Positions 44,867-55,026 of a stretch of 55,026 bases of DNA are shown here, in pieces (position 1 is the stretch's first letter; each line of letters opens with the position of its first letter). The translations under genes were made by a program, and so were the position numbers. The DNA lies in the NCBI GenBank assembly GCA_021810565.1, contig JAJZIM010000015.1:1-55026 (forward strand), read 5' to 3'. Source of the stretch: Bacillota bacterium. Its GTDB lineage: Bacteria; Bacillota; Sulfobacillia; JAJZIM01. The notes under the pieces were generated by a model. It was given only the letters and a program-made list of their open reading frames with translations, ran no database searches and was not told the origin of the DNA.

Positions 44867-45439
44867 ATGACCGACAGCATGCCGCTGACCCTGGCCCAAC
44901 AGCGCCTGGGCATCCACCGTTTGGGCCGGCCGGAGCACCCCAAGGCGGCGGTCCCCGCCGCCGATCCCGGCGTCGCCGCCGCCAGCGCAGCCGCCCTGCT
45001 GCCGGTGGACCTCGCCGAGCTTGCCCCCGATCCCGCCCCCCCTCCCGACGCCTTCCCGGATCCCGATCCGGCCCCCGCGGCGGTAGCCGATCCGCCGCCG
45101 GAACCCGAGGCCGCCGCCTTGACCGCGCCATCGCGCCCGCCCACGGCGGATCCCCCCCTGGCCGCCATCCGGGAGCTGTCCGCCGGGATCTACGACCTGG
45201 GGCGCAGGATCCAGGCCACCGCCTTGCACCTGGAATCCCTCTACGACCTATGGGCCCTGCCCGCGGAGGAGTACGAGGCAGCCCATCCCGCCGCCGCGGG
45301 GCCGCGACCCGCCGCGCCCCTCCCCGACCACCGGGGTATGGACCTGAAGACCCTGTTGGAGTTCCTCGGCTCCTCGGACATCCTGCGGCTGATGGCGGAC
45401 AAGGTGCTGGCCGCGACTCGGGAATCGTCCCCCCGCTAG
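44867..45439 (+). CDS. Hypothetical Pro/Ala-rich protein
   Basis: A 190-residue protein of unknown function. The start PLTLAQQRLGIHRLGRPEHP is followed by a long low-complexity Ala/Pro/Asp segment (about residues 25-95). A better-ordered end, AIRELSAGIYDLGRRIQATALHLESLYDLWAL and MDLKTLLEFLGSSDILRLMADKVL, is helical. AGAGGAG lies about 12 bases before ATG 44867. It is the second gene of a small cluster. Confidence 0.6.
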   Translation: MTDSMPLTLAQQRLGIHRLGRPEHPKAAVPAADPGVAAASAAALLPVDLAELAPDPAPPPDAFPDPDPAPAAVADPPPEPEAAALTAPSRPPTADPPLAAIRELSAGIYDLGRRIQATALHLESLYDLWALPAEEYEAAHPAAAGPRPAAPLPDHRGMDLKTLLEFLGSSDILRLMADKVLAATRESSPR

Positions 45440-45456
45440 GGGCGGGGGGAGACGGC

Positions 45457-45780
45457 ATGGACGCCCCGGTGGACGCGGATCTGGAACGGCTGCTGGCGCT
45501 GCTCGCCCGCCCCCTGCCCTACCTCCCCGCCCCCGTGGGCCGGCTGCTGACCCGCTGGCGGTTGGCGCTCACCCGGGTGCCGGTGGTGGTGCAATTGCGG
45601 CCAGGATGCGCTCCCGAGCGCCTAATCCGCTGGGTGCGGCACCGCCACGGTCGGCCGGGTCCCGCCTTGGAACTGGCCGACGCCTTCGCCGCACAACTGC
45701 CGGTCGCCGCCTTGGAAGAACTGCGGCGGGATCCGGAGGTGACCCTGGTTGTCCTGGACCGAACCGGGCACGCCCTGTGA
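45457..45780 (+). CDS. Small protein resembling a stand-alone subtilisin propeptide (I9-like)
   Basis: A 107-residue protein. From about residue 42 the pattern VVVQLRPGCAPERLIRWV, then ALELADAFAAQLPVAALEEL, then RRDPEVTLVVLDRTG follows the inhibitor I9/subtilisin pro-domain: a first strand, helix, a central A.A..LP strand, helix and a last strand ending 'dp.V..v..D'. There is no protease domain after it. ATG 45457 has GGGGGGAG eight bases upstream. It is convergent with the broken subtilase gene at 46069. It might inhibit or help fold a subtilase. The assignment is by pattern only. Confidence 0.5.
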   Translation: MDAPVDADLERLLALLARPLPYLPAPVGRLLTRWRLALTRVPVVVQLRPGCAPERLIRWVRHRHGRPGPALELADAFAAQLPVAALEELRRDPEVTLVVLDRTGHAL

Positions 45781-46068: not shown

Positions 46069-46470
46069 TCATCCGGCGGCCGCGGCGCGCCCTCCCGCGG
46101 CCGCCTGAGCGTCCAGATAGCCGCTCCCCTGCACGTCAGGGGGGTAGCCGCGGTCCTGGGCCGTACCGAGGAGGCGCTCCTTGAGGGCGTCGGGAGACAA
46201 GGTGGGCTCGAGGCACAGCATTTGAGCCGCCACCCCCGCCGCCAGGGGCGTGGCCATGGAGGTGCCCGACAGTTCGAAGTAGTGCTGGCCCACCCGGGCC
46301 GCCGCCAGCTTCTTGTCCAGATAGGAGCCGGGCGCCCGCAGGGAGATCACCCGCACCCCCGGGGAGAGCAAATCCGGCTTGGTGACGCCGTCCGTCGTGG
46401 GACCGCGGCTGGAGAAGGGAGCCACCACGTCGTCGGGGCGCGGTACGGTGCGCCGGTCGTCAGAAGGTCC
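46069..46470 (-). pseudogene. 3' half of a subtilisin-like (S8) protease gene
   Basis: The last 130 or so residues of the recombinase reading frame are not recombinase: they read VGPSDDRRTVPRPDDVVAPF, FSSRGPTTDGVTKPDLLSPGV and FELSGTSMATPLAAGVAAQML, the end of an S8 subtilase, with the catalytic serine in GTSMATP. The catalytic Asp and His, the signal peptide and the pro-domain are missing. The other half is not found anywhere in the window. The join to recombinase sequence is near 46465-46490, in the subtilase 'vtVGA.dd' strand. Confidence 0.85.
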
Positions 46471-47928
46471 AACATGTGATCCGTCTGCCGGATGGACCCG
46501 GCCCTCCAAGACCACCTTGCCCGTACGGTCCACGGTGATGCGAGTGACGAGCCGCAGCAGGACGTTCCGCCGCTCGTCCAAGGACATGGCCGATCCGGCG
46601 TCCTGCCGCAGGACAGCTAGCCATTCCAAGACCGGGCCTAAGTCCATGGGTACACGGGAGGCGTGTTTTGCCGCCCGGTCCTGGGCTTCGAGTATAGCCA
46701 GTTGGGCATCTATCCGCCGCAGGTTCTCCCGCACCTCGTCCAGCTTGGCCATGCCCTCTGCCACCAAAACCAATAGATTGCGCCGCCCACTTTGGAGCTT
46801 GTCCATTTGGCTCCTCAGCCGCTTCAAATCTGACCCCCGGCCTATGTCCTCCGATCGCACGGCCAAGAGCGAGCGCCAGAAGTCCTCCGGCCTGCCAAGG
46901 TAATCCTGGACGGTGGTCCAAACCGTAGCGTCCAGGTTGTCCATCCGGTGGTACCCGTTGGGGCACCGCCCCCCATCGCCGCGCTCCATCTGGCCCTGGC
47001 GATTTAGGCAGACGTAATAGGAGGCGAGACCCGGCACCGGTCGCTTGCGAAAGGCCCGCAGGGAAGCCCCGCATTCCCCACACTGCAGGATTCCCGACAG
47101 AAGCGCCGGGTTATTGGTGCCAGACCTGCAGCGGCGAGAATTTTCCATCAGTAGTGCGTTTGCAGCCGCGAAGGTCTCTGGGACCACGATGCGCGGGCAG
47201 GCCACGAAAATCCGCCGGCCCTCATTGTCCGTCCCTTGGGACAACATCCCGGCGTAGGCCGTTATCCTAAGGATGCGCAGCACCTCGCCGCGATCCCAGT
47301 CCCCTCCCTTGGGCGCGGCAATGCCGTCCCGATTCAGTCCCCGGGCCACACTGGGACTGCCCATGCCCGAGATGTATTCCTGAAAGATCCTGCGTACCAC
47401 CTCGGCTTGGTCCTCCCGAACCCGGACCTCTTTGACGACCTTGTCGTATGCGTATCCGTACATGTTGCTCGGTGGACAGGCCACCCCTCCCAAGGATGCC
47501 TTTCGGCGCTTCCCCCTTATCGTCCGCTGCCGGATCTTCTCCCGCTCCATCTGAGCCATAGCTCCGCGAATGGATAGGAAGAACCGCCCCTCGGAGGTAT
47601 TCTCCCAAGTCATGTCCACGAAGACGATGCGCACCCCGTTGTGGGTGATTTCATCGGTAACGACCAAGAGGTCCACGGTGTCCCGTGATAGACGGTCTGG
47701 ATCCATGACCACCAGACCGCACAGATCCGCGGCGTTCCTCAGCCGCTGCATCGCCGGCCTTTTGAGGGTGGAGCCGGAGTGGCCCTCGTCAATGAACTCG
47801 ATTATATCAGCCCCCGGGAATTCCTCCAGCGCCCTGCGGCGGCATCTATCCAGCTGGTCTCCCAAGGAGTAGCCATGCTTCGCCTGTTCATCCGTGGACA
47901 CCCTCACGTAAATGCCCACTTTCACCAA
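46069..47928 (-). CDS. Large serine recombinase (integrase), reading into a subtilase remnant
   Basis: A 619-codon frame. The resolvase catalytic domain is KVGIYVRVSTDEQAKHGYSL (catalytic Ser), IEFIDEGHSGSTLKRPAM and DPDRLSRDTVDL. The recombinase domain follows (PPSNMYGYAYDKVVKEVRV; GSPSVARGLNRDGIAAPKG). A zinc ribbon, CGECGASLRAF...YYVCLNRQG...RCPNGYH, and a coiled coil (KRLRSQMDKLQSGRRNLL) come next, then the usual end RLVTRITVDRTGKVVLEG. From about 46470 the frame is subtilase. Such enzymes integrate and excise prophage or conjugative elements. TTG 47928 has GGAGG nine bases upstream. The original recombinase stop has probably been replaced by host sequence at the attachment site. Confidence 0.9.
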   Translation of the reverse strand: MVKVGIYVRVSTDEQAKHGYSLGDQLDRCRRRALEEFPGADIIEFIDEGHSGSTLKRPAMQRLRNAADLCGLVVMDPDRLSRDTVDLLVVTDEITHNGVRIVFVDMTWENTSEGRFFLSIRGAMAQMEREKIRQRTIRGKRRKASLGGVACPPSNMYGYAYDKVVKEVRVREDQAEVVRRIFQEYISGMGSPSVARGLNRDGIAAPKGGDWDRGEVLRILRITAYAGMLSQGTDNEGRRIFVACPRIVVPETFAAANALLMENSRRCRSGTNNPALLSGILQCGECGASLRAFRKRPVPGLASYYVCLNRQGQMERGDGGRCPNGYHRMDNLDATVWTTVQDYLGRPEDFWRSLLAVRSEDIGRGSDLKRLRSQMDKLQSGRRNLLVLVAEGMAKLDEVRENLRRIDAQLAILEAQDRAAKHASRVPMDLGPVLEWLAVLRQDAGSAMSLDERRNVLLRLVTRITVDRTGKVVLEGRVHPADGSHVGPSDDRRTVPRPDDVVAPFSSRGPTTDGVTKPDLLSPGVRVISLRAPGSYLDKKLAAARVGQHYFELSGTSMATPLAAGVAAQMLCLEPTLSPDALKERLLGTAQDRGYPPDVQGSGYLDAQAAAGGRAAAAG

Positions 47929-48067
47929 GTACCGGCACCTCCCTTTCCGCCTTTGAAAGCGCCTGCCGTACGATCTCCCTCCGGGCATCTTCCGCCGCTT
48001 CCGGCTCTGGATATGCACCCCATGTCACCACGTATTCGACAAGCACCTGCATACTCTTCTTTTCCAT
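47888..48067 (-). CDS. Small protein overlapping the recombinase start
   Basis: A 59-residue protein, MEKKSMQVLVEYVVTWGAYP then EPEAAEDARREIVRQALSKAER. AAGGAGG is about 11 bases upstream of ATG 48067. It overlaps the recombinase start by 41 bases, so the two are co-translated. Small partners of serine integrases include directionality factors; whether this is one is unknown. It has a strand followed by a charged helix but no recognisable DNA-binding motif. Confidence 0.55.
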   Translation of the reverse strand: MEKKSMQVLVEYVVTWGAYPEPEAAEDARREIVRQALSKAEREVPVLGESGHLREGVHG

Positions 48068-48200
48068 GGGGTGCCCCACCTCCTTTTCAAAGCTATGCTC
48101 GATCTCACCCAGGACGGCCCTGTTCCCCTGCCTCCCGGTCCTCCAGAACCTGACACACGGCACACGTTCCATGCCTGGGAGCTAGTCCAGCGCCTCCCAC

Positions 48201-48230
48201 GAAAAGGCCCCGGGGATTTCCCCAGGGCCT
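48201..48230 (-). terminator. Terminator in the recombinase leader
   Basis: On the minus strand AGGCCCTGGGG-AAAT-CCCCGGGGCCT is followed by TTTTCG. It lies downstream of the predicted promoter at 48322-48351 and upstream of the recombinase operon, so transcripts must pass it. Confidence 0.8.
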
Positions 48231-48321
48231 CAGGCCGTCTTATGGACATACTTATCGGGCGACGCTAGAGTGACATGTGCAAATTTTCAGTTTAATTCCT
48301 CATATTCCTTTTTTCGGCCGC

Positions 48322-48351
48322 ATTATATCCTGGTGGGGGCCTACCTGTCAA
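48322..48351 (-). promoter_or_regulatory. Strong predicted promoter of the recombinase operon
   Basis: TTGACA (48351-48346), 18 bases, TATAAT (48327-48322): both hexamers match consensus on the minus strand. It overlaps the 3' end of the upstream helix-turn-helix gene and leaves a leader of about 250 bases before ATG 48067. Confidence 0.75.
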
Positions 48352-48595
48352 TAGGCTCCGAACAATTTTTCTGGGAAACTTGCTGCGGCCGCCCTGTAGG
48401 TTCGTGGTACCAGGTTGTGGTCGGTGTAGTTCCCCTGGCTGTCACCGTAGGCTCCTTGCATCGCGGTAGACGTAGGCCCGCGCGGGAGGCCGCCTTGCGA
48501 ATGGCTGCGGCGCTTACCTGAAGTTCGGCGGCGATCCTTTTTGCGGGCCAGCCCCGCCTTATCAGACGGAGGATTTGTTCCTGGGGAATGTTCAT
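48341..48595 (-). CDS. Small helix-turn-helix protein
   Basis: An 84-residue protein. The N-terminal MNIPQEQILRLIRRGWPAKR then IAAELQVSAAAIRKAASRAGLRLP forms a resolvase/homeodomain-like helix-turn-helix; the remaining 45 residues are polar and probably flexible. GGGAGGAGGG precedes ATG 48595. It is divergent from the XRE regulator and has its own promoter at 48696-48724. It probably takes part in controlling the element. Confidence 0.65.
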   Translation of the reverse strand: MNIPQEQILRLIRRGWPAKRIAAELQVSAAAIRKAASRAGLRLPRCKEPTVTARGTTPTTTWYHEPTGRPQQVSQKNCSEPIDR

Positions 48596-48695
48596 GGGAG
48601 ACCCTCCTCCCGTTCTCTGGCAGGATTCCGGCGCGCTGTGCCGAAAGGAACAAGACAGGCAGACCTTGCCACGGCTATGTTCGTTGTGCACACCC

Positions 48696-48724
48696 ATTAT
48701 AATGTTCGCTATACATACAGTCAA
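48696..48724 (-). promoter_or_regulatory. Promoter of the helix-turn-helix gene, overlapping the divergent XRE promoter
   Basis: TTGACT (48724-48719), 17 bases, TATAAT (48701-48696) on the minus strand. The palindrome ATTATAAT at 48696-48703 also supplies a TATAAT on the plus strand, 41 bases before the XRE start. ATGTTCG occurs at 48677-48683 and 48702-48708 and could be a regulator site. Confidence 0.6.
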
Positions 48725-48743
48725 GAGGTAAGGGGCGGTTCGC

Positions 48744-49085
48744 TTGCCCTCCCTTGGACAACGGATCAAGGAACTTCGGACGGCACGGCGCTTCTCTCAG
48801 GAGCGGCTAGCAGCCATGGTGAACGTGCCCCGTTCGGCCATCGCCAATTACGAACGCGGCGCCTACCGCCCAAGCCTGGACGTGCTGGTGCGGCTCGCGG
48901 ATTGCCTCGGCGTGTCACTCGACTACCTGGTCGGCCGGGAGGACGCCATTGTCGCGGCCGAGGCGACCGCCAGGTACAACGTGGGTCCTGACCCCGAGCA
49001 CGTAGCTGAGGTGCTGGCCGAAATGGAGACCCTGCTGAAGCGGCTTGAAAACCTGCGGAGCAAACTGTTGCGGATGCTGCGCTGA
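48744..49085 (+). CDS. XRE-family transcriptional regulator
   Basis: A 113-residue protein with an N-terminal Cro/CI-type helix-turn-helix, LGQRIKELRTARRFSQERLA, AMVNVPRSAIANYERGAYRP and LVRLADCLGVSLDYLVGRED, followed by a helical C-terminal tail AEVLAEMETLLKRLENLRSKLLRML likely used for dimerisation. TTG 48744 follows AAGAGGTAAGGGG. It is divergent from the small helix-turn-helix gene over a shared promoter region, the layout of a lysogeny-type switch. Confidence 0.85.
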   Translation: MPSLGQRIKELRTARRFSQERLAAMVNVPRSAIANYERGAYRPSLDVLVRLADCLGVSLDYLVGREDAIVAAEATARYNVGPDPEHVAEVLAEMETLLKRLENLRSKLLRMLR

Positions 49086-49167
49086 TTCTGGCCCCCACCA
49101 TTTACGACGCACGACTTCCTCGTCGCGTCACACCTCCGGGCAAAACTTCCTGGGCGAGGTGACTTGC

Positions 49168-50703
49168 TTGGAGCCGCACGAGGCCCTGGAGGCCCTGGTC
49201 AACTCCCACCAGTCCCGGGTGCAGGCGATTGCCTTCCGCATCCTGGGCTCCAGGCACGAGGCGGAGGACGTGGCCCAGGAAGCGTTTCTGAGGGCCTACG
49301 AACTGCTCAAGAGGGGGGAAGCGATAAAGAACCCGGGCGCATGGCTGGCCCGGGTAACGACGAACCTTGCTATAGGCAGGACCCGATTGGCGGAGCACCG
49401 GCTTGCGACAAACTTTGATCCCACGGCGGAGGACGGGGCCGTCTGGAGCAAGGCGGCCGACGACGCTGATCCTGGGGAGACCGCCGCCCGGCGGGCGGTG
49501 GCGGACTTGGTTTGGCGGCTGTCAGCCAAGCTCCCCGCGAGGTACCGCGCGGTGCTGGCCCTACGGACCATTGAGCAGATGGACTACCCCGAGATAGCAG
49601 AGGCCCTGGCCATCGGCCATGGCAACGCCAGGATGCTCTTCTCCCGCGCCAGGGAGGCCCTGCGCCGGGAGGTCATCCGCAACCTCGACCGGCGGGCCGT
49701 GGTCACCCCAGAGTGCAAGCCCGTCCTGGCCGACCTTCCCCGGTTCCTTGACAACCAGTTGCCCACAGAGCGCATGCGGGAGGTGGCCGAGCACCTGTCG
49801 GCCTGCCGGGCGTGCGCCCTGACGGAGCAGACCTGCCGCGACAGCTTGTTCGGGGTGGATTTGTGGCCGCTGCTTCTATCTAACCTGGCGGGGAACCTGC
49901 CTCAAGAGAAACCGTCCGTTCCGATTACAGGCGGGAAGTCGCGGCTGCATTCACTCGCCAAAAGGTGGGCGCGGGAGGGACCCGTCAGACTTGCGGCGGT
50001 GGCGCTCCTATCAGTATTGGTTGGAGGAGGCCTGGTTGCCGCGATGATGCACCCGCACAGTCCTTCTCCAAAACCGAGGCAGCCGGTCGGCGCGAAGGCG
50101 ACCGTGGTGCCTACCAAGCATTCTCCGGTGCACTCTCCTGTGCCGCAGACGAATACCGCACCCCAGCCGTCTTCCTCCGGCACCTTGAGGCCAACCCAGC
50201 CAGCCCCTCCCACGACGACCACTAGCCTGTATCCCTCTCTCGTGCTGCCAAGCACCAGCTTTTCTGTCGGGGGGACGTACTTCACGCTGGTGGCCGTTAG
50301 CATGACGGCTGGGGAAACGGTGAACGGGATCACCTGTCTGGCCTACACGCCGGTAGTCAACATCCTTGCCGATCCGTCATCTTCGGCCCCTTTCCCCTAT
50401 CCCTTCAGTGTTCAACTCGAAGGAATGACGTTCAAGGGGCCTGCAGTTACGGGGCAGCTTCCCAACGATGCAGAGACGTGTGGCTCCTCCTACTTTGCCG
50501 ACATGGGTACCCAGAGCAAAACCTATCCAGGCCCTGTAGGAGGAACCACCTGGTCCACACCTGACCTGACGGGTGCGCTGGTTTTGGATGCGAATCTCCC
50601 GGTGCAAGTGTCTGCCGGAGTTAGCAGCGTGATTGTTGTTGTTAGTGCAAACGGCAGCGGGAAGACGGCTAGCGTTCCAGTGAAGTGGAATAGCGCTACA
50701 TAG
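49168..50703 (+). CDS. Single-chain ECF sigma / anti-sigma / transmembrane / exported-domain protein
   Basis: A 511-residue protein joining parts that are normally separate. Residues 10-75 are sigma region 2 (AFRILGSRHEAEDVAQEAFL; NPGAWLARVTTNLAIGRTR) and 118-172 sigma region 4 (LPARYRAVLALRTIEQMDY; PEIAEALAIGHGNARMLFSR). Residues 183-222 are a zinc-finger anti-sigma domain (LPRFLDNQLPTERM; HLSACRAC, with H209, C213, C216). One membrane helix spans 273-293 (VRLAAVALLSVLVGGGLVAA). A Pro/Thr/Ser-rich linker leads to an outside beta-rich domain with cysteines in GITCLAYTP and ETCGSSYF. TTG 49168 has GAGGTG nearby. The sigma part would be tethered to the membrane under its own anti-sigma and must be freed, probably by proteolysis. 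Fused sigma/anti-sigma proteins are known in some actinobacterial ECF groups. Confidence 0.85.
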   Translation: MEPHEALEALVNSHQSRVQAIAFRILGSRHEAEDVAQEAFLRAYELLKRGEAIKNPGAWLARVTTNLAIGRTRLAEHRLATNFDPTAEDGAVWSKAADDADPGETAARRAVADLVWRLSAKLPARYRAVLALRTIEQMDYPEIAEALAIGHGNARMLFSRAREALRREVIRNLDRRAVVTPECKPVLADLPRFLDNQLPTERMREVAEHLSACRACALTEQTCRDSLFGVDLWPLLLSNLAGNLPQEKPSVPITGGKSRLHSLAKRWAREGPVRLAAVALLSVLVGGGLVAAMMHPHSPSPKPRQPVGAKATVVPTKHSPVHSPVPQTNTAPQPSSSGTLRPTQPAPPTTTTSLYPSLVLPSTSFSVGGTYFTLVAVSMTAGETVNGITCLAYTPVVNILADPSSSAPFPYPFSVQLEGMTFKGPAVTGQLPNDAETCGSSYFADMGTQSKTYPGPVGGTTWSTPDLTGALVLDANLPVQVSAGVSSVIVVVSANGSGKTASVPVKWNSAT

Positions 50704-50968
50704 GCCATAGAAGATACTCCAATCCGAAAGAAGGATCTGTCCTTGCCGCCCATGCCGCACATCCTCCCGTCCTCCGTCTTGTGTCAAACGAAATATGGCC
50801 CTTACGGGAGCCGTAGGGCACGAAAAAGTCGGCCGGATGGCCAGTTTATTTTACACAAGGGGCATTGTGGAAAGTGGACGTCGGACCATTTCCCGCGGAA
50901 ACCGCTCCCTCTTGACCCAGTTAAGTTCCGCACATAAAAAATCTACCTAAGTCAACTGTTGCTGAGAT
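50704..50968. other. Intergenic stretch between convergent genes
   Basis: No gene seen. GCCCTTACGG (50798-50807) and CCGTAGGGC (50811-50819) can form a hairpin with one bulge and may be a terminator. The stretch is AT-richer than the flanks on its right side. Confidence 0.4.
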
Positions 50969-52321
50969 TTAATTTAACTGCTTCTTCCCCCCAAGCACGA
51001 ATAGTGCCGCCTCAAACACGGCCCAGGCAGACTGGCGCAACGCAGCGGCTTCATCGCGCTTTGCTTTAGCCGCCTGCGTACGGGCGTTCAGGTCAATCAG
51101 CAGCGTCTGCTGACGATCTACCCCAATCTCTGGAATAAGCAGGCCAGACACTTCCTTACTGTTGATGGATGCCAAATTTGTAGTTCGTTTGGCTTTGCTG
51201 AGAAAGTACGCTTGCCCATAACTGCTGTTAATTACCGCCAGCGCATACTCAGGCAACAGTCGATTCCGATCCACCCGGATGCGCAGAACGTGGTTCTGAT
51301 GAACGCAATCCGCGATCTCGCCTCCCCAGATAGCGCCGCGCCCGACCAAGTCCGGGCTGTTGCCTTCGCATAGGAGCACGTCACCAACCTCCAAGCGTAG
51401 TTTCGGCATGTCCGCATCGGGTACGTTGATGTACTTGATCTCACGCAGATCAAGTACGCCCCGCTGCACATTGGCCACTCGCAAATACGGACGAGCATGC
51501 ATCCCCGGCCTGTTGGCTGGGGATTTCTGGATTCCATAGCTGACCTTGGCCAACTGGCCTAGTGGAGTCAGCGCGCCTCTGCCAACTATAACCGACTCCT
51601 GCTTCTGTGTCTGTGCACGCAGGATCCCGTCGTGGCTCCAACGCTCCACTTCCTTAAACCGCGCCACGAACACCGACCGATCCGGCAGCGGTGATGGTGA
51701 CGCCACGCCGAGCGCCGCTTCGAACACCCGCCAGCCAGCACGCTCGATGGCTTCGGCTTCTTCCTCCAGGGCCGCGGCGCGCGCCAGGGCATCGACATAG
51801 GCGGTAACCAAGGTATCCTGTTCATCCAGAGCGGGCACCGGGACTTCGAGCGTCAGGAACCCGTCCGGCGTAACACGCTTGCGCCCGCTGGTGCCAGATG
51901 CCTTGCGCTTCAGGTCGGCCTGAAAGTGCTCAGCTCGCAACAGATAGTGCAGGTAGTCGGCACGCAGCTTGTCAGCCTTGGGCGTGAAGACCGGGTACTC
52001 GCTGGTCACGACCGCCTTCGGGATGCTGGCCGGGATCAATCCAACGGCGCCATTGCGCGCGTCGATCTTCGAGAACACCAGGTCACCTGGATAGGCAGCG
52101 AACATTGCACCCTTGAAGGCATCGGCACGCGCGCGCGGTAGCACCTCACCCGAGAATTTGATGGTGATGGCCTGCCAATCACCAAAAGAGCCGTTCATCC
52201 GCACTAGCTCACGCCGCTTGGTTAGCAGTTTCCGCAATGGTAACATCGGGTATGGACTGATGCGGCTTGTCGATCTGTCGTTCTCGATCCAGCGTTCGAT
52301 CGCCCTCCACCGTTGGATCAC
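50969..52321 (-). CDS. hsdS: Type I restriction-modification specificity subunit HsdS
   Basis: A 450-residue HsdS. Two target-recognition domains are visible, each followed by a helical spacer: the first around YPGDLVFSKIDARNGAVGLIP and SEYPVFTPKADKLRADYLHYLLR, ending VPVPALDEQDTLVTAYVDALARAAALEEEAEAI; the second around KVSYGIQKSPANRPG, YLRVANVQRGVLDLREIKYI, GDVLLCEGNSPDLVGRGAIW, ending LLIPEIGVDRQQTLLIDLNARTQAAKAKRDEAAAL. It chooses the bipartite DNA sequence that HsdM methylates. GTG 52321 overlaps the hsdM stop (GTGA). Base composition is much less GC-rich than the core genes, a sign of transfer. Confidence 0.92.
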   Translation of the reverse strand: MIQRWRAIERWIENDRSTSRISPYPMLPLRKLLTKRRELVRMNGSFGDWQAITIKFSGEVLPRARADAFKGAMFAAYPGDLVFSKIDARNGAVGLIPASIPKAVVTSEYPVFTPKADKLRADYLHYLLRAEHFQADLKRKASGTSGRKRVTPDGFLTLEVPVPALDEQDTLVTAYVDALARAAALEEEAEAIERAGWRVFEAALGVASPSPLPDRSVFVARFKEVERWSHDGILRAQTQKQESVIVGRGALTPLGQLAKVSYGIQKSPANRPGMHARPYLRVANVQRGVLDLREIKYINVPDADMPKLRLEVGDVLLCEGNSPDLVGRGAIWGGEIADCVHQNHVLRIRVDRNRLLPEYALAVINSSYGQAYFLSKAKRTTNLASINSKEVSGLLIPEIGVDRQQTLLIDLNARTQAAKAKRDEAAALRQSAWAVFEAALFVLGGKKQLN

Positions 52322-54741
52322 GCAGTGGAGGGCTCCGGAAAATTTGGCATGGTCTCCGCTTGCGCGCCAGTGGCAATCCAAGCCTCAAATTCGCGGTAGG
52401 CCTTGAGCAGCCCAGGTAGTTCGTTGGGCACACCTTCGCCAGTCTCGCCGGTAGAGGTGATGCCCACGACCTTTGGTGCAGCCATGAATACAGGATAGTC
52501 GAACAACTCGCGCACGCGTGCCCATAGGGCTGCGGTATGGGCCTCATCGATGGCTTTGTACGTCGCTTTTAATTCCGACAGCAGTACATTACAACGCTCC
52601 TGCACCGCGGCCAGTGCTGCGATGGCCTTCTTTTTCAGTTCGATGGTGGCCTTGCTGTATTTCGTGGCAGCCTTACTCTGCCAGATCGGCTTGCCTTGCA
52701 GAGTGGGCCTGACCTGGCGTGGGTAAGCCGGCGCTTCGCCACGCTGCCAGGGTGGTAGCACACGATTGATGCCCAACGCGCTCAGCTCGGTCAACAAACA
52801 TTGCAGATCGGAGTCTTCCCCGTTGACAATTCGCGGAGCATAGGCGGCATGGGCGTCGCTGCGCTGTTGGTCGAATCCAGCATCCAACTCGGCGTGGGCC
52901 TGCGTCCAGGCAGACTCCCACTGCGCCGTTTCCTCATCTGTAAACTTGCGCAGAAACACCAGCGAGGCCTTGACCGTAGTCTTGCTGGAATGGAAGGTTT
53001 TCTCTGGCAGGCCAACTACGGCTAACAGTTTGGCTTTGCCTTCTGCCCAACGGCGCAGCCAAGCCAACGAGGGATTATTGAGGTTGCCATCAGGCAGAAC
53101 GATACCCATTCGGCCACCAGGCTTGAGCAGGTTCAAGCAGCGCTCGACGAAGATAAGCTCGGTGGGGCGATTGTTTTTGCCCTTGCCAATCTCAAACAAA
53201 TCGAGGATGGGCGTCTTGGCGGCGGCGGCTTGCAACAGACGACGGTGGCTTTGCTCCCACGCGTCTCCGTAGCCGCGAACACGACACCGTTGTAGGTAGG
53301 CAACATCTTCCGGCACACGGGTCTCGTCACTGCCACCAACCTTCTGATCAGCTCCGACATTGGAGCCGAAGGGCGGATTAGTAAGCACGACATCAAACCG
53401 CCCGTTGAAGATGCCGTTTATGTCGAGCAGACCATCGTGGTAATGGATGCCGCCGTGCCCGTCGCCATGCATGATCATGTTCATCTTGGCAGTACGAGCA
53501 GCGCGCGGTTCGGCATCGGTACCGTAAATACATTGCCAAGCCAGGCGGCCGACGCGGGTGTCGATAGGCTGATTATCGTTGCCGCTAGGCAACAATTGTT
53601 GGTTAAGTCGGGCAAAGGCTTCTTCGATTCGCTGCTCTTCTTCTTCCTCAGGCAGGCCCAAAGCTTCGATGCGAGCCCGCTCCTCATCTTTCTGCTGCTG
53701 GATGTCAGCCACAATCTGAGCGCGCACGTGTTCGAAGGCGCGGATCAAAAACCCGCCGGAACCGGCTGCCGGATCACATATGAGCTCACCCTCCTTGGGA
53801 TTGAGCAGCTCGACCATGAACTCCACCAAAGGGCGCGGAGTGAAGAACTGGCCCAACTCACCACGAAAGGTGGTGCCAAGGAACTTTTCGAAAGCCAGCC
53901 CCTTAACGTCATCACCGGTTTTAGAAAGGTCGAAACGTTCAAGATGCTTGACAATACGACGGAAGGTTTCCTCTGAGATGTCAAGCTTGTCTGTAGGGGA
54001 GAATAGATCATCAGCCCGATAGTAGGTCTTCGTCTGCTCGAACAGGCTGTCGTGCACTGCAGCATCGGTGGGCAAACGCACCTGAGCTCGCCGGTCGAGG
54101 TACTCAGTGGTAAAGGTGCCATATAAGCCAGAACGTTCTATGTACATCTTGATAAATAATATTTTCGATATGGTGTCAAAGGCTCGCCCGGGATCCATCT
54201 TGTGAACATCGCGCAAGATATTATGGCACTCTAACAGCAGATCTTGAAACTCCTTGCGGTTGAAGGCCCGCAGAGATTCACGGATTTCATTCAAACGCCT
54301 GGCGTCACCCCAATCTGTAGCCCTAGGGATCTCGTTAATAGCGACAAACTCCCCAGGCACGCCAGGCACCACTTTGAACACCGCGGTGTGGCGGGCATTG
54401 GTGGCGATAAAGAATTCGCAGCCTGTGGCCCGGCTATAGGACTCTCCCTGATAGTAATCGCGCTCCTGAATTTCAATGGTGTCAGTTTTACATTCGACTA
54501 CTAGCACAGGTGTTCGGTTAGCAATTCTATCAGTTGGTGATTGCCAAACCACGATGTCGGCACGAGGGCTTTTGCGACCGTGTTGTGTGCGCCGTTCTTG
54601 GTCCATCTGATCTAACGAATATCCGTAGTGCTCAACCAGCGTGCGGACAAAACGCTGGCGAACAAGTTCCTCCGGCTTGCTCGTAATGTCGCGCCATTCG
54701 TTGCGCAACGGAATCCACAGCCAACTGCCTTCCTGATGCAA
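52318..54741 (-). CDS. hsdM: Type I DNA methyltransferase HsdM with fused HsdR-N-like nuclease domain
   Basis: An 807-residue protein. Residues 20-150 look like a type I HSDR_N domain with a PD-(D/E)xK pattern: Asp62 in SPRADIVVW and Glu83-x-Lys85 in VLVVECKTD, then YYQGESYSRATGCEFFIATN. HsdM N- and catalytic domains follow: FEKFLGTTFRGELGQFFTPR, DPAAGSGGFLIRAFEHV (SAM motif I), and VVLTNPPFGSNVG (NPPF, adenine-N6 motif IV), then LNLLKPGGRMGIVLPDGNLN. It would methylate adenine with HsdS. No HsdR helicase is in the window. TTG 54741 is the first start in this frame; no ribosome site is visible and a neighbouring frame is open upstream, so the exact start is uncertain. Confidence 0.9.
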   Translation of the reverse strand: MHQEGSWLWIPLRNEWRDITSKPEELVRQRFVRTLVEHYGYSLDQMDQERRTQHGRKSPRADIVVWQSPTDRIANRTPVLVVECKTDTIEIQERDYYQGESYSRATGCEFFIATNARHTAVFKVVPGVPGEFVAINEIPRATDWGDARRLNEIRESLRAFNRKEFQDLLLECHNILRDVHKMDPGRAFDTISKILFIKMYIERSGLYGTFTTEYLDRRAQVRLPTDAAVHDSLFEQTKTYYRADDLFSPTDKLDISEETFRRIVKHLERFDLSKTGDDVKGLAFEKFLGTTFRGELGQFFTPRPLVEFMVELLNPKEGELICDPAAGSGGFLIRAFEHVRAQIVADIQQQKDEERARIEALGLPEEEEEQRIEEAFARLNQQLLPSGNDNQPIDTRVGRLAWQCIYGTDAEPRAARTAKMNMIMHGDGHGGIHYHDGLLDINGIFNGRFDVVLTNPPFGSNVGADQKVGGSDETRVPEDVAYLQRCRVRGYGDAWEQSHRRLLQAAAAKTPILDLFEIGKGKNNRPTELIFVERCLNLLKPGGRMGIVLPDGNLNNPSLAWLRRWAEGKAKLLAVVGLPEKTFHSSKTTVKASLVFLRKFTDEETAQWESAWTQAHAELDAGFDQQRSDAHAAYAPRIVNGEDSDLQCLLTELSALGINRVLPPWQRGEAPAYPRQVRPTLQGKPIWQSKAATKYSKATIELKKKAIAALAAVQERCNVLLSELKATYKAIDEAHTAALWARVRELFDYPVFMAAPKVVGITSTGETGEGVPNELPGLLKAYREFEAWIATGAQAETMPNFPEPSTA

Positions 54742-54916
54742 TGTGCCGTGTTGAATGGGGAGCTTTGCTCAAAATTAAATTTTCCGCCCCGGTTAACTGG
54801 CAATATCAGTCATAAAGGGTGGTCAATAACCAGCGGGAAGGCCGGCATAATTTCCAGTCCGGGACGATATGGTGCTTAATACCATTCATGGCACTGATAC
54901 TAAGGAGCCGGAAAAC
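54742..54916. other. AT-richer gap upstream of hsdM
   Basis: No gene. On the minus strand a TTGACC at about 54822-54817 with a poorly placed TATTGC could be a weak promoter. The stretch nearest 54916 may contain the end of the insertion sequence whose transposase tail follows. Confidence 0.3.
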
Positions 54917-55026
54917 ATTAACCTGACTTTTGCTTGTGGGGTAGAACCGAATAATTCCAGTCGCCGTGGAAGGCATCCCGCCGGAGGTTGACGGTAGCCA
55001 ACTCGTCGTCCAAAACGCGAGTGCCG
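54917..55026 (-). pseudogene. C-terminal end of an ISAzo13-like transposase (cut by window edge)
   Basis: The minus strand from the window edge reads TRVLDDELATVNLRRDAFHG then DWNYSVLPHKQKSG and stops at 54919-54917. The 'FHG(D/E)WNY' ending is characteristic, from memory, of ISAzo13-family (Rhodopirellula-type DDE) transposases. Only about 36 codons are inside the window, so it cannot be judged intact or broken. Confidence 0.5.

Follow-up and report, generated by a model that had tools for sequence, protein, structure and literature searches.

The window analysed here (the whole 55,026-nucleotide stretch of DNA, contig C98 of a 115-contig, 3.18-Mb draft genome, G000) very probably contains one end of an integrative conjugative element (ICE) of at least 32.8 kb, which a large serine recombinase (LSR) inserted partway through a host gene encoding an S8 subtilase. 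Both halves of the subtilase gene are present in the genome on two contigs, where they are broken at the same pair of codons and share a 6-bp core, with the LSR at one end of the element and a conjugation operon at the other. The two ends are made up as follows.

46069 to 47928, minus strand: fused frame of the LSR and the C-terminal part of the subtilase (sequence, Pfam)
46069 to 46455, minus strand: 3' part of the host S8 subtilase, 128 aa plus stop, with the catalytic Ser in GTSMATP (PF00082 positions 182-284; gap-free join with the N-terminal half on contig C23 against relatives)
46456 to 46461, minus strand: attachment core GACGAC, common to both element ends (junction comparison; partner copy C23:24274-24279)
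46462 to 47928, minus strand: LSR, 489 codons before the core, reading outward into the subtilase 3' part (Pfam, SD)
46462 to 55026, no strand: part of the element in the window, 8.6 kb, continuing past the contig end (GC, Pfam, junction comparison)
G000:C23:1-24273, no strand: the other element end (Pfam, NCBIfam)

The original prediction held that the recombinase frame runs without a stop into the C-terminal part of an S8 protease including GTSMATP, and this is confirmed by Pfam and by the reading of a single stop-free frame from a TTG start at 47928 to a stop at 46069. The recombinase start was chosen by SD position, with GGGAGGTG well positioned 5' of this TTG. The frame matches Resolvase (2.5e-32), Recombinase (1.5e-16) and Zn_ribbon_recom (1.5e-10), the three domains of an LSR, all intact and all above the Pfam cut-off, followed in the same frame by Peptidase_S8 positions 182-284 of 288 (2.6e-16). 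Joining of the recombinase in frame to the C-terminal part of the split gene would by itself be expected in one case out of three, since the host gene is of course open in its own frame beyond the junction, and as such is weak evidence of function. Alignments with homologous LSRs that cover the C-terminus stop near residue 465-480, so that the core probably lies beyond the end of the LSR domain and only the tail is probably swapped on integration. No close relative of the LSR was found among the genome-contig and viral-contig collections searched, the best match within the class having 37-38% identity, and there are thus no sister elements from which to deduce its site specificity. Further long frames with a recombinase, found elsewhere in the class, were considered as additional fusions, and on inspection mostly resembled upstream extensions or off-frame tails in GC-rich DNA.

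The Asp/His half of the protease is missing at the window locus, as had been predicted, and was located elsewhere in the same genome in the expected orientation. A search of the genome with Peptidase_S8 identified five places, only one of which, C23:24196-24786(-), was limited to the first part of the model. The corresponding 324-codon frame (G000:C23:24223-25197, minus strand) covers Peptidase_S8 positions 1-183 and carries the prodomain and the Asp, His and oxyanion-Asn motifs; it ends ...ITVGAMDDGQPCVQMTAQSKVGGG*, with its stop 16 codons beyond the break. This half exactly complements the half in the window, and on both sides of the break GACGAC is read as the codons GAC GAC. A split and complement of this kind, in which homology stops and starts at the same codon, is far beyond chance. 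In nine relatives of the same class both parts lie in one uninterrupted gene in which the spacing across the junction is preserved, at the distance that the GACGAC join predicts (33 bases from one fixed alignment end to the other, or its equivalent). The rejoined protein is 55-58% identical to four aligned relatives, without an indel at the junction. When 154 genomes of the class were compared, close matches (E <= 1e-60) outside this genome always lay in one open frame, and a truncated copy of the subtilase was seen in this genome only; the possibility that relatives share the fused gene and have no empty site is thus not borne out. The host flanks showed no synteny with relatives, the subtilase itself alone being conserved, and the empty site was therefore read from the gene alone. 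Our genome has one other similar paralogue, on contig C42, which is uninterrupted and 49% identical. With NCBIfam, the subtilase matched S8 models below their cut-offs only. The subtilase is perhaps an orthologue of B. subtilis AprX. A small gene adjoins the split subtilase and is convergent with it (window 45250-45780, plus strand, from an internal ATG); its product resembles the prodomain of that subtilase (33% over 99 aa, E 4e-7) and is possibly a free-standing propeptide inhibitor.

As the genome is a draft in which the two junctions lie on different contigs, chimeric contigs or a chromosomal rearrangement in the subtilase gene could have produced unrelated breakpoints. We consider this extremely unlikely, as the breaks fall at the same codon, have a common core, and lead to the LSR and to conjugation genes respectively. 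Allowing for the draft state of the assembly, we regard both the interruption and the point at which it falls as established, and the two halves, the core and the relatives agree with the prediction of an LSR-borne element inside a subtilase gene, with one attachment junction in the window.

The 24 kb of the element on C23 is mostly a same-strand conjugation module. From the core to about 6 kb on this contig, the genes run in the same sense as the subtilase and encode a Toprim zinc-ribbon protein, a pentapeptide protein, a MobP3 relaxase (169 bits against the NCBIfam cut-off of 150), a VirD4 coupling protein (T4SS-DNA_transf, 3.3e-15 in Pfam), two SSBs, TrbL (TrbL_4), RadC, a VirB4/TraG ATPase (P-loop_TraG, 1.5e-21) and an actin-like ParM. 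Past the conjugation genes, a methyltransferase and an AAA protein are encoded, and a CRISPR array of 10 repeats lies where the contig ends. Because relaxase, coupling protein, VirB4 and integrase occur together, though on two contigs, and GACGAC forms direct repeats at both junctions, the element is on its gene content an ICE, of at least 32.8 kb (24.3 + 8.6 kb visible, with the middle missing). No capsid, portal, terminase or tail family was found by Pfam among the predicted proteins scanned, in an element of which the interior is incomplete. This interior is unassembled and the ends of C23 and C98 do not overlap, C23 beginning near the CRISPR array, and as such we infer the continuity between the two ends. 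Mobility of the ICE is predicted from its genes, and the element may be immobile.

Homologues of the first gene of the element, encoding the Toprim zinc-ribbon protein, are found at G000:C48:14105-14716(-) (58%) and, in a second genome, at G001:C174:7242-7823(+) (54%), the latter near VirD4-, RadC- and actin-like genes in a related conjugation module with the same order. The CRISPR array on C23 (112-817), which lies at the contig end on the element side of the junction, has 37-nt repeats, as do arrays at C33:20804-22396 and C76:1721-3323, with one or two fixed base differences between arrays. No CRISPR spacer matched the element better than chance.

The part of the element in the window has a GC content of mostly 51-66%, against about 70% in host DNA, and besides the LSR contains the following features.

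47888 to 48067, minus strand: frame of 59 codons that has a strong SD and overlaps the start of the recombinase; it may encode a directionality factor, a guess from its size and place only (sequence)
48204 to 48231, minus strand: GC-rich hairpin of 12 bp and a short run of T, located between the promoter and the recombinase and perhaps an attenuator (folding)
48322 to 48351, minus strand: perfect sigma-70 consensus TTGACA-18-TATAAT directed at the recombinase (12/12)
48744 to 49085, plus strand: Cro/CI-type HTH regulator (Pfam HTH_3, 1.5e-17)
49045 to 50703, plus strand: ECF sigma factor that includes zf-HC2 and is extended at the C-terminus; its true start is probably later (Pfam Sigma70_r2, Sigma70_r4_2, zf-HC2)
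50969 to 52381, minus strand: type I restriction specificity subunit (HsdS-like), cargo (Pfam Methylase_S, 6.1e-5, slightly above the cut-off)
52318 to 54741, minus strand: DNA methyltransferase with HSDR_N_2 and N6_Mtase, cargo (Pfam, 4.2e-30 and 7e-33)

Shuffling of the promoter region gave 0.5 promoter-like matches of at least 9/12. The 121-nt leader with the hairpin had a z of -1.87, and the hairpin was not called in a terminator scan. The 59-codon frame had no homologue among the fetched loci, and an Rfam scan of the element part of the window gave no match. The methyltransferase resembles the MADS defence methyltransferase MAD2, at a score below the NCBIfam cut-off.

The junctions allow both attachment sites to be proposed. 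Joining the element ends gives a candidate attP of ...CACATGTTGGACCTTCT-GACGAC-GGGCAACCATGTGTAC..., or in its other written form ...GGACCTTCT GACGAC GGGCAACCATG..., while the candidate attB is ...GGGGGCGATG GACGAC CGGCGCACC.... The joined attP contains an imperfect inverted repeat, the centre of which is one base inside the core; equally good repeats were found in 2.3% of random joins, so that this moderately significant feature may be regarded as supportive of the site and not decisive. The candidate attP extends over the last part of the LSR gene, and the short repeat sits both in the target and in the 3' end of the integrase gene, as in elements of the rumA type. The stop of the subtilase half on C23 overlaps the GTG of the first transfer-side gene.

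From this arrangement, it is likely that the recombinase would cross the site on the circular element with GACGAC in the subtilase gene, and since the recombinase gene ends within the region of attP, the LSR and its target would exchange their 3' ends in frame upon integration. The recombinase would lose a 16-codon tail (GQPCVQMTAQSKVGGG) and gain the 128-aa C-terminal part of the subtilase, while the N-terminal part of the subtilase would gain the 16-codon tail and its stop. In the integrated state the protease would be without its catalytic Ser and presumably inactive, and excision would restore its gene. In the circle, the LSR transcript from the perfect sigma-70 promoter would cross attP, and the LSR frame would end where it overlaps the GTG with which the transfer operon's first gene starts, such that circularisation would place this operon behind the recombinase promoter, as in Tn916. 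We infer these circle-dependent steps of transcription from layout only. In Tn916, transfer genes are expressed only after circularisation, in an element with a tyrosine integrase, low target specificity and proven antitermination (canT) (PMC11658703); the element described here would likewise have its transfer genes behind an outward-reading promoter only after circularisation, as predicted from the layout, and differs in having an LSR rather than a tyrosine integrase.

The fused recombinase-subtilase, with a predicted length of about 619 aa, may also be made, as originally suggested, and it can be asked if it has its own selected function, for example with the C-terminal domain keeping the recombinase in a mode for integration. 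A good promoter precedes the fusion, which is in frame, and exchange of the 3' end of an integrase can alter its behaviour, as for int of myxophage Mx8, which contains attP within the gene and acquires a new 3' end on integration (PMC6070905). Mx8 is similar to the present case in this change of the integrase 3' end on integration, and differs in being a phage in a lysogenic context. However, an in-frame result would be expected one time in three, the same exchange changes the frame in the rumA ICEs (PMC4701971), and no second independent case of a recombinase-subtilase fusion was found in our search among genomes of the class. We therefore regard a selected function for the fusion as improbable. 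A more elaborate proposal, which we consider equally doubtful, is a two-way switch at one site, by which a single state of the DNA would govern both the activity of the protease and the competence for transfer, while the direction of the recombinase would be set by the swapped tail. When integrated, the protease promoter would lead into the transfer operon and the recombinase would bear the 128-aa protease tail; when excised, the protease would be whole, and the recombinase promoter, with its coupled 16-codon tail, would drive the transfer operon.

The serine-integrase ICEs found in rumA of Streptococcus can be considered the nearest documented case to the LSR-mediated ICE insertion that we favour. 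These carry Tn1549- and Tn5252-type conjugation modules and have short direct repeats (2-21 bp), with one copy in rumA and one in the integrase gene, and their integration exchanges the 3' parts of the two genes with a change of frame (PMC4701971). The present element has in common with these a single LSR, an attP at the 3' end of the integrase gene and a reciprocal exchange of 3' ends. In contrast, its target is not rumA but an S8 subtilase, cut in the middle of the catalytic domain, both products of the exchange stay in frame, and it has a MobP3 relaxase and a host in a Bacillota lineage that is probably near Symbiobacterium and Thermaerobacter.

The element had originally been compared with the interruptions of sigK and comK in Bacilli, and this stands in so far as a gene-splitting element is concerned, but not as to a sigK- or comK-type prophage, as this is on its gene content an ICE with conjugation genes, and its recombinase is at the 3' side. 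LSR elements that split genes of spore-formers, with demonstrated excision, include sigK-skin, gerE-gin, spsM-SPbeta and yabG-yin (PMC5595907, PMC4191935, PMC10747680). As in these, an LSR element here splits a protein gene at a short core in a predicted spore-former, with both halves kept in frame as expected of an intervening element, and as in yin the interrupted gene is a protease gene. Skin, SPbeta and yin are prophage-like and gin is non-phage, none being described as conjugative, in contrast to the ICE here, and the recombinase of skin and of yin comes after the 5' part of the split gene, whereas here it is at the 3' half and fused to it.

The original prediction further suggested that the element may act as a regulatory switch. 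In a switch of the skin, gin or yin type, excision on a cue (for example in the mother cell during sporulation) would rebuild a protease on which the host depends. Consistent with this, the catalytic motifs of both subtilase halves and all LSR domains are intact, related cases are known in gerE, spsM and yabG, and the host is a predicted spore-former because spoIVA (783 bits) and an intact sigK-like gene are present. The best phage match of the LSR is also the integrase of Alicyclobacillus phage MMB025 (33%). This phage is probably the Alicyclobacillus phage integrated in sigK in PMC13141910. Nevertheless, no link of the subtilase to sporulation or to a sporulation sigma factor was found, intact motifs would be equally expected of a recent insertion, and the element is an ICE with its own interest in transfer. 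A regulatory switch is as such unlikely. A promoter scan upstream of the subtilase, for the sigma-70 pattern only, called nothing. Somewhat less unlikely, and a tentative possibility, is that this is a recent or decaying insertion that is effectively irreversible, with the protease knocked out and the element a stable island. The fused C-terminus could weaken the recombinase, and the uninterrupted paralogue on C42 may make loss of the protease tolerable; on the other hand, there is no frameshift or stop in the LSR or conjugation genes examined.

With integration of an ICE by its LSR into the subtilase gene, a protease gene would join the few known targets of serine-recombinase ICEs, here in a lineage of spore-formers that has been little studied, and the case provides exact attP and attB candidates. 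In a limited full-text search of the literature we found no paper on an LSR element in a subtilase gene, and a search on aprX and prophages gave nothing relevant by title and abstract. The arrangement is of a known kind, but as far as this limited search reaches, both the choice of target and the swap in frame seem to be without precedent. Exchange of C-termini in frame would be a convenient case in which to ask if the state of integration is sensed through the recombinase's own tail, and the element raises the question of whether conjugative elements, besides prophages, act as reversible gene interrupters in spore-formers.

We note that in a relative from the class (locus L082, G060:C48:13000-18500) the frame of a serine recombinase continues into the C-terminal region of an apparent sporulation-type sigma factor. 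The genome of this relative has no full-score SigK, and the locus is perhaps a skin-like element, the C-terminus of its recombinase being ambiguous. Three more large serine recombinases are encoded in the genome studied here, on contigs C18, C78 and C111, and the host may carry several such elements.
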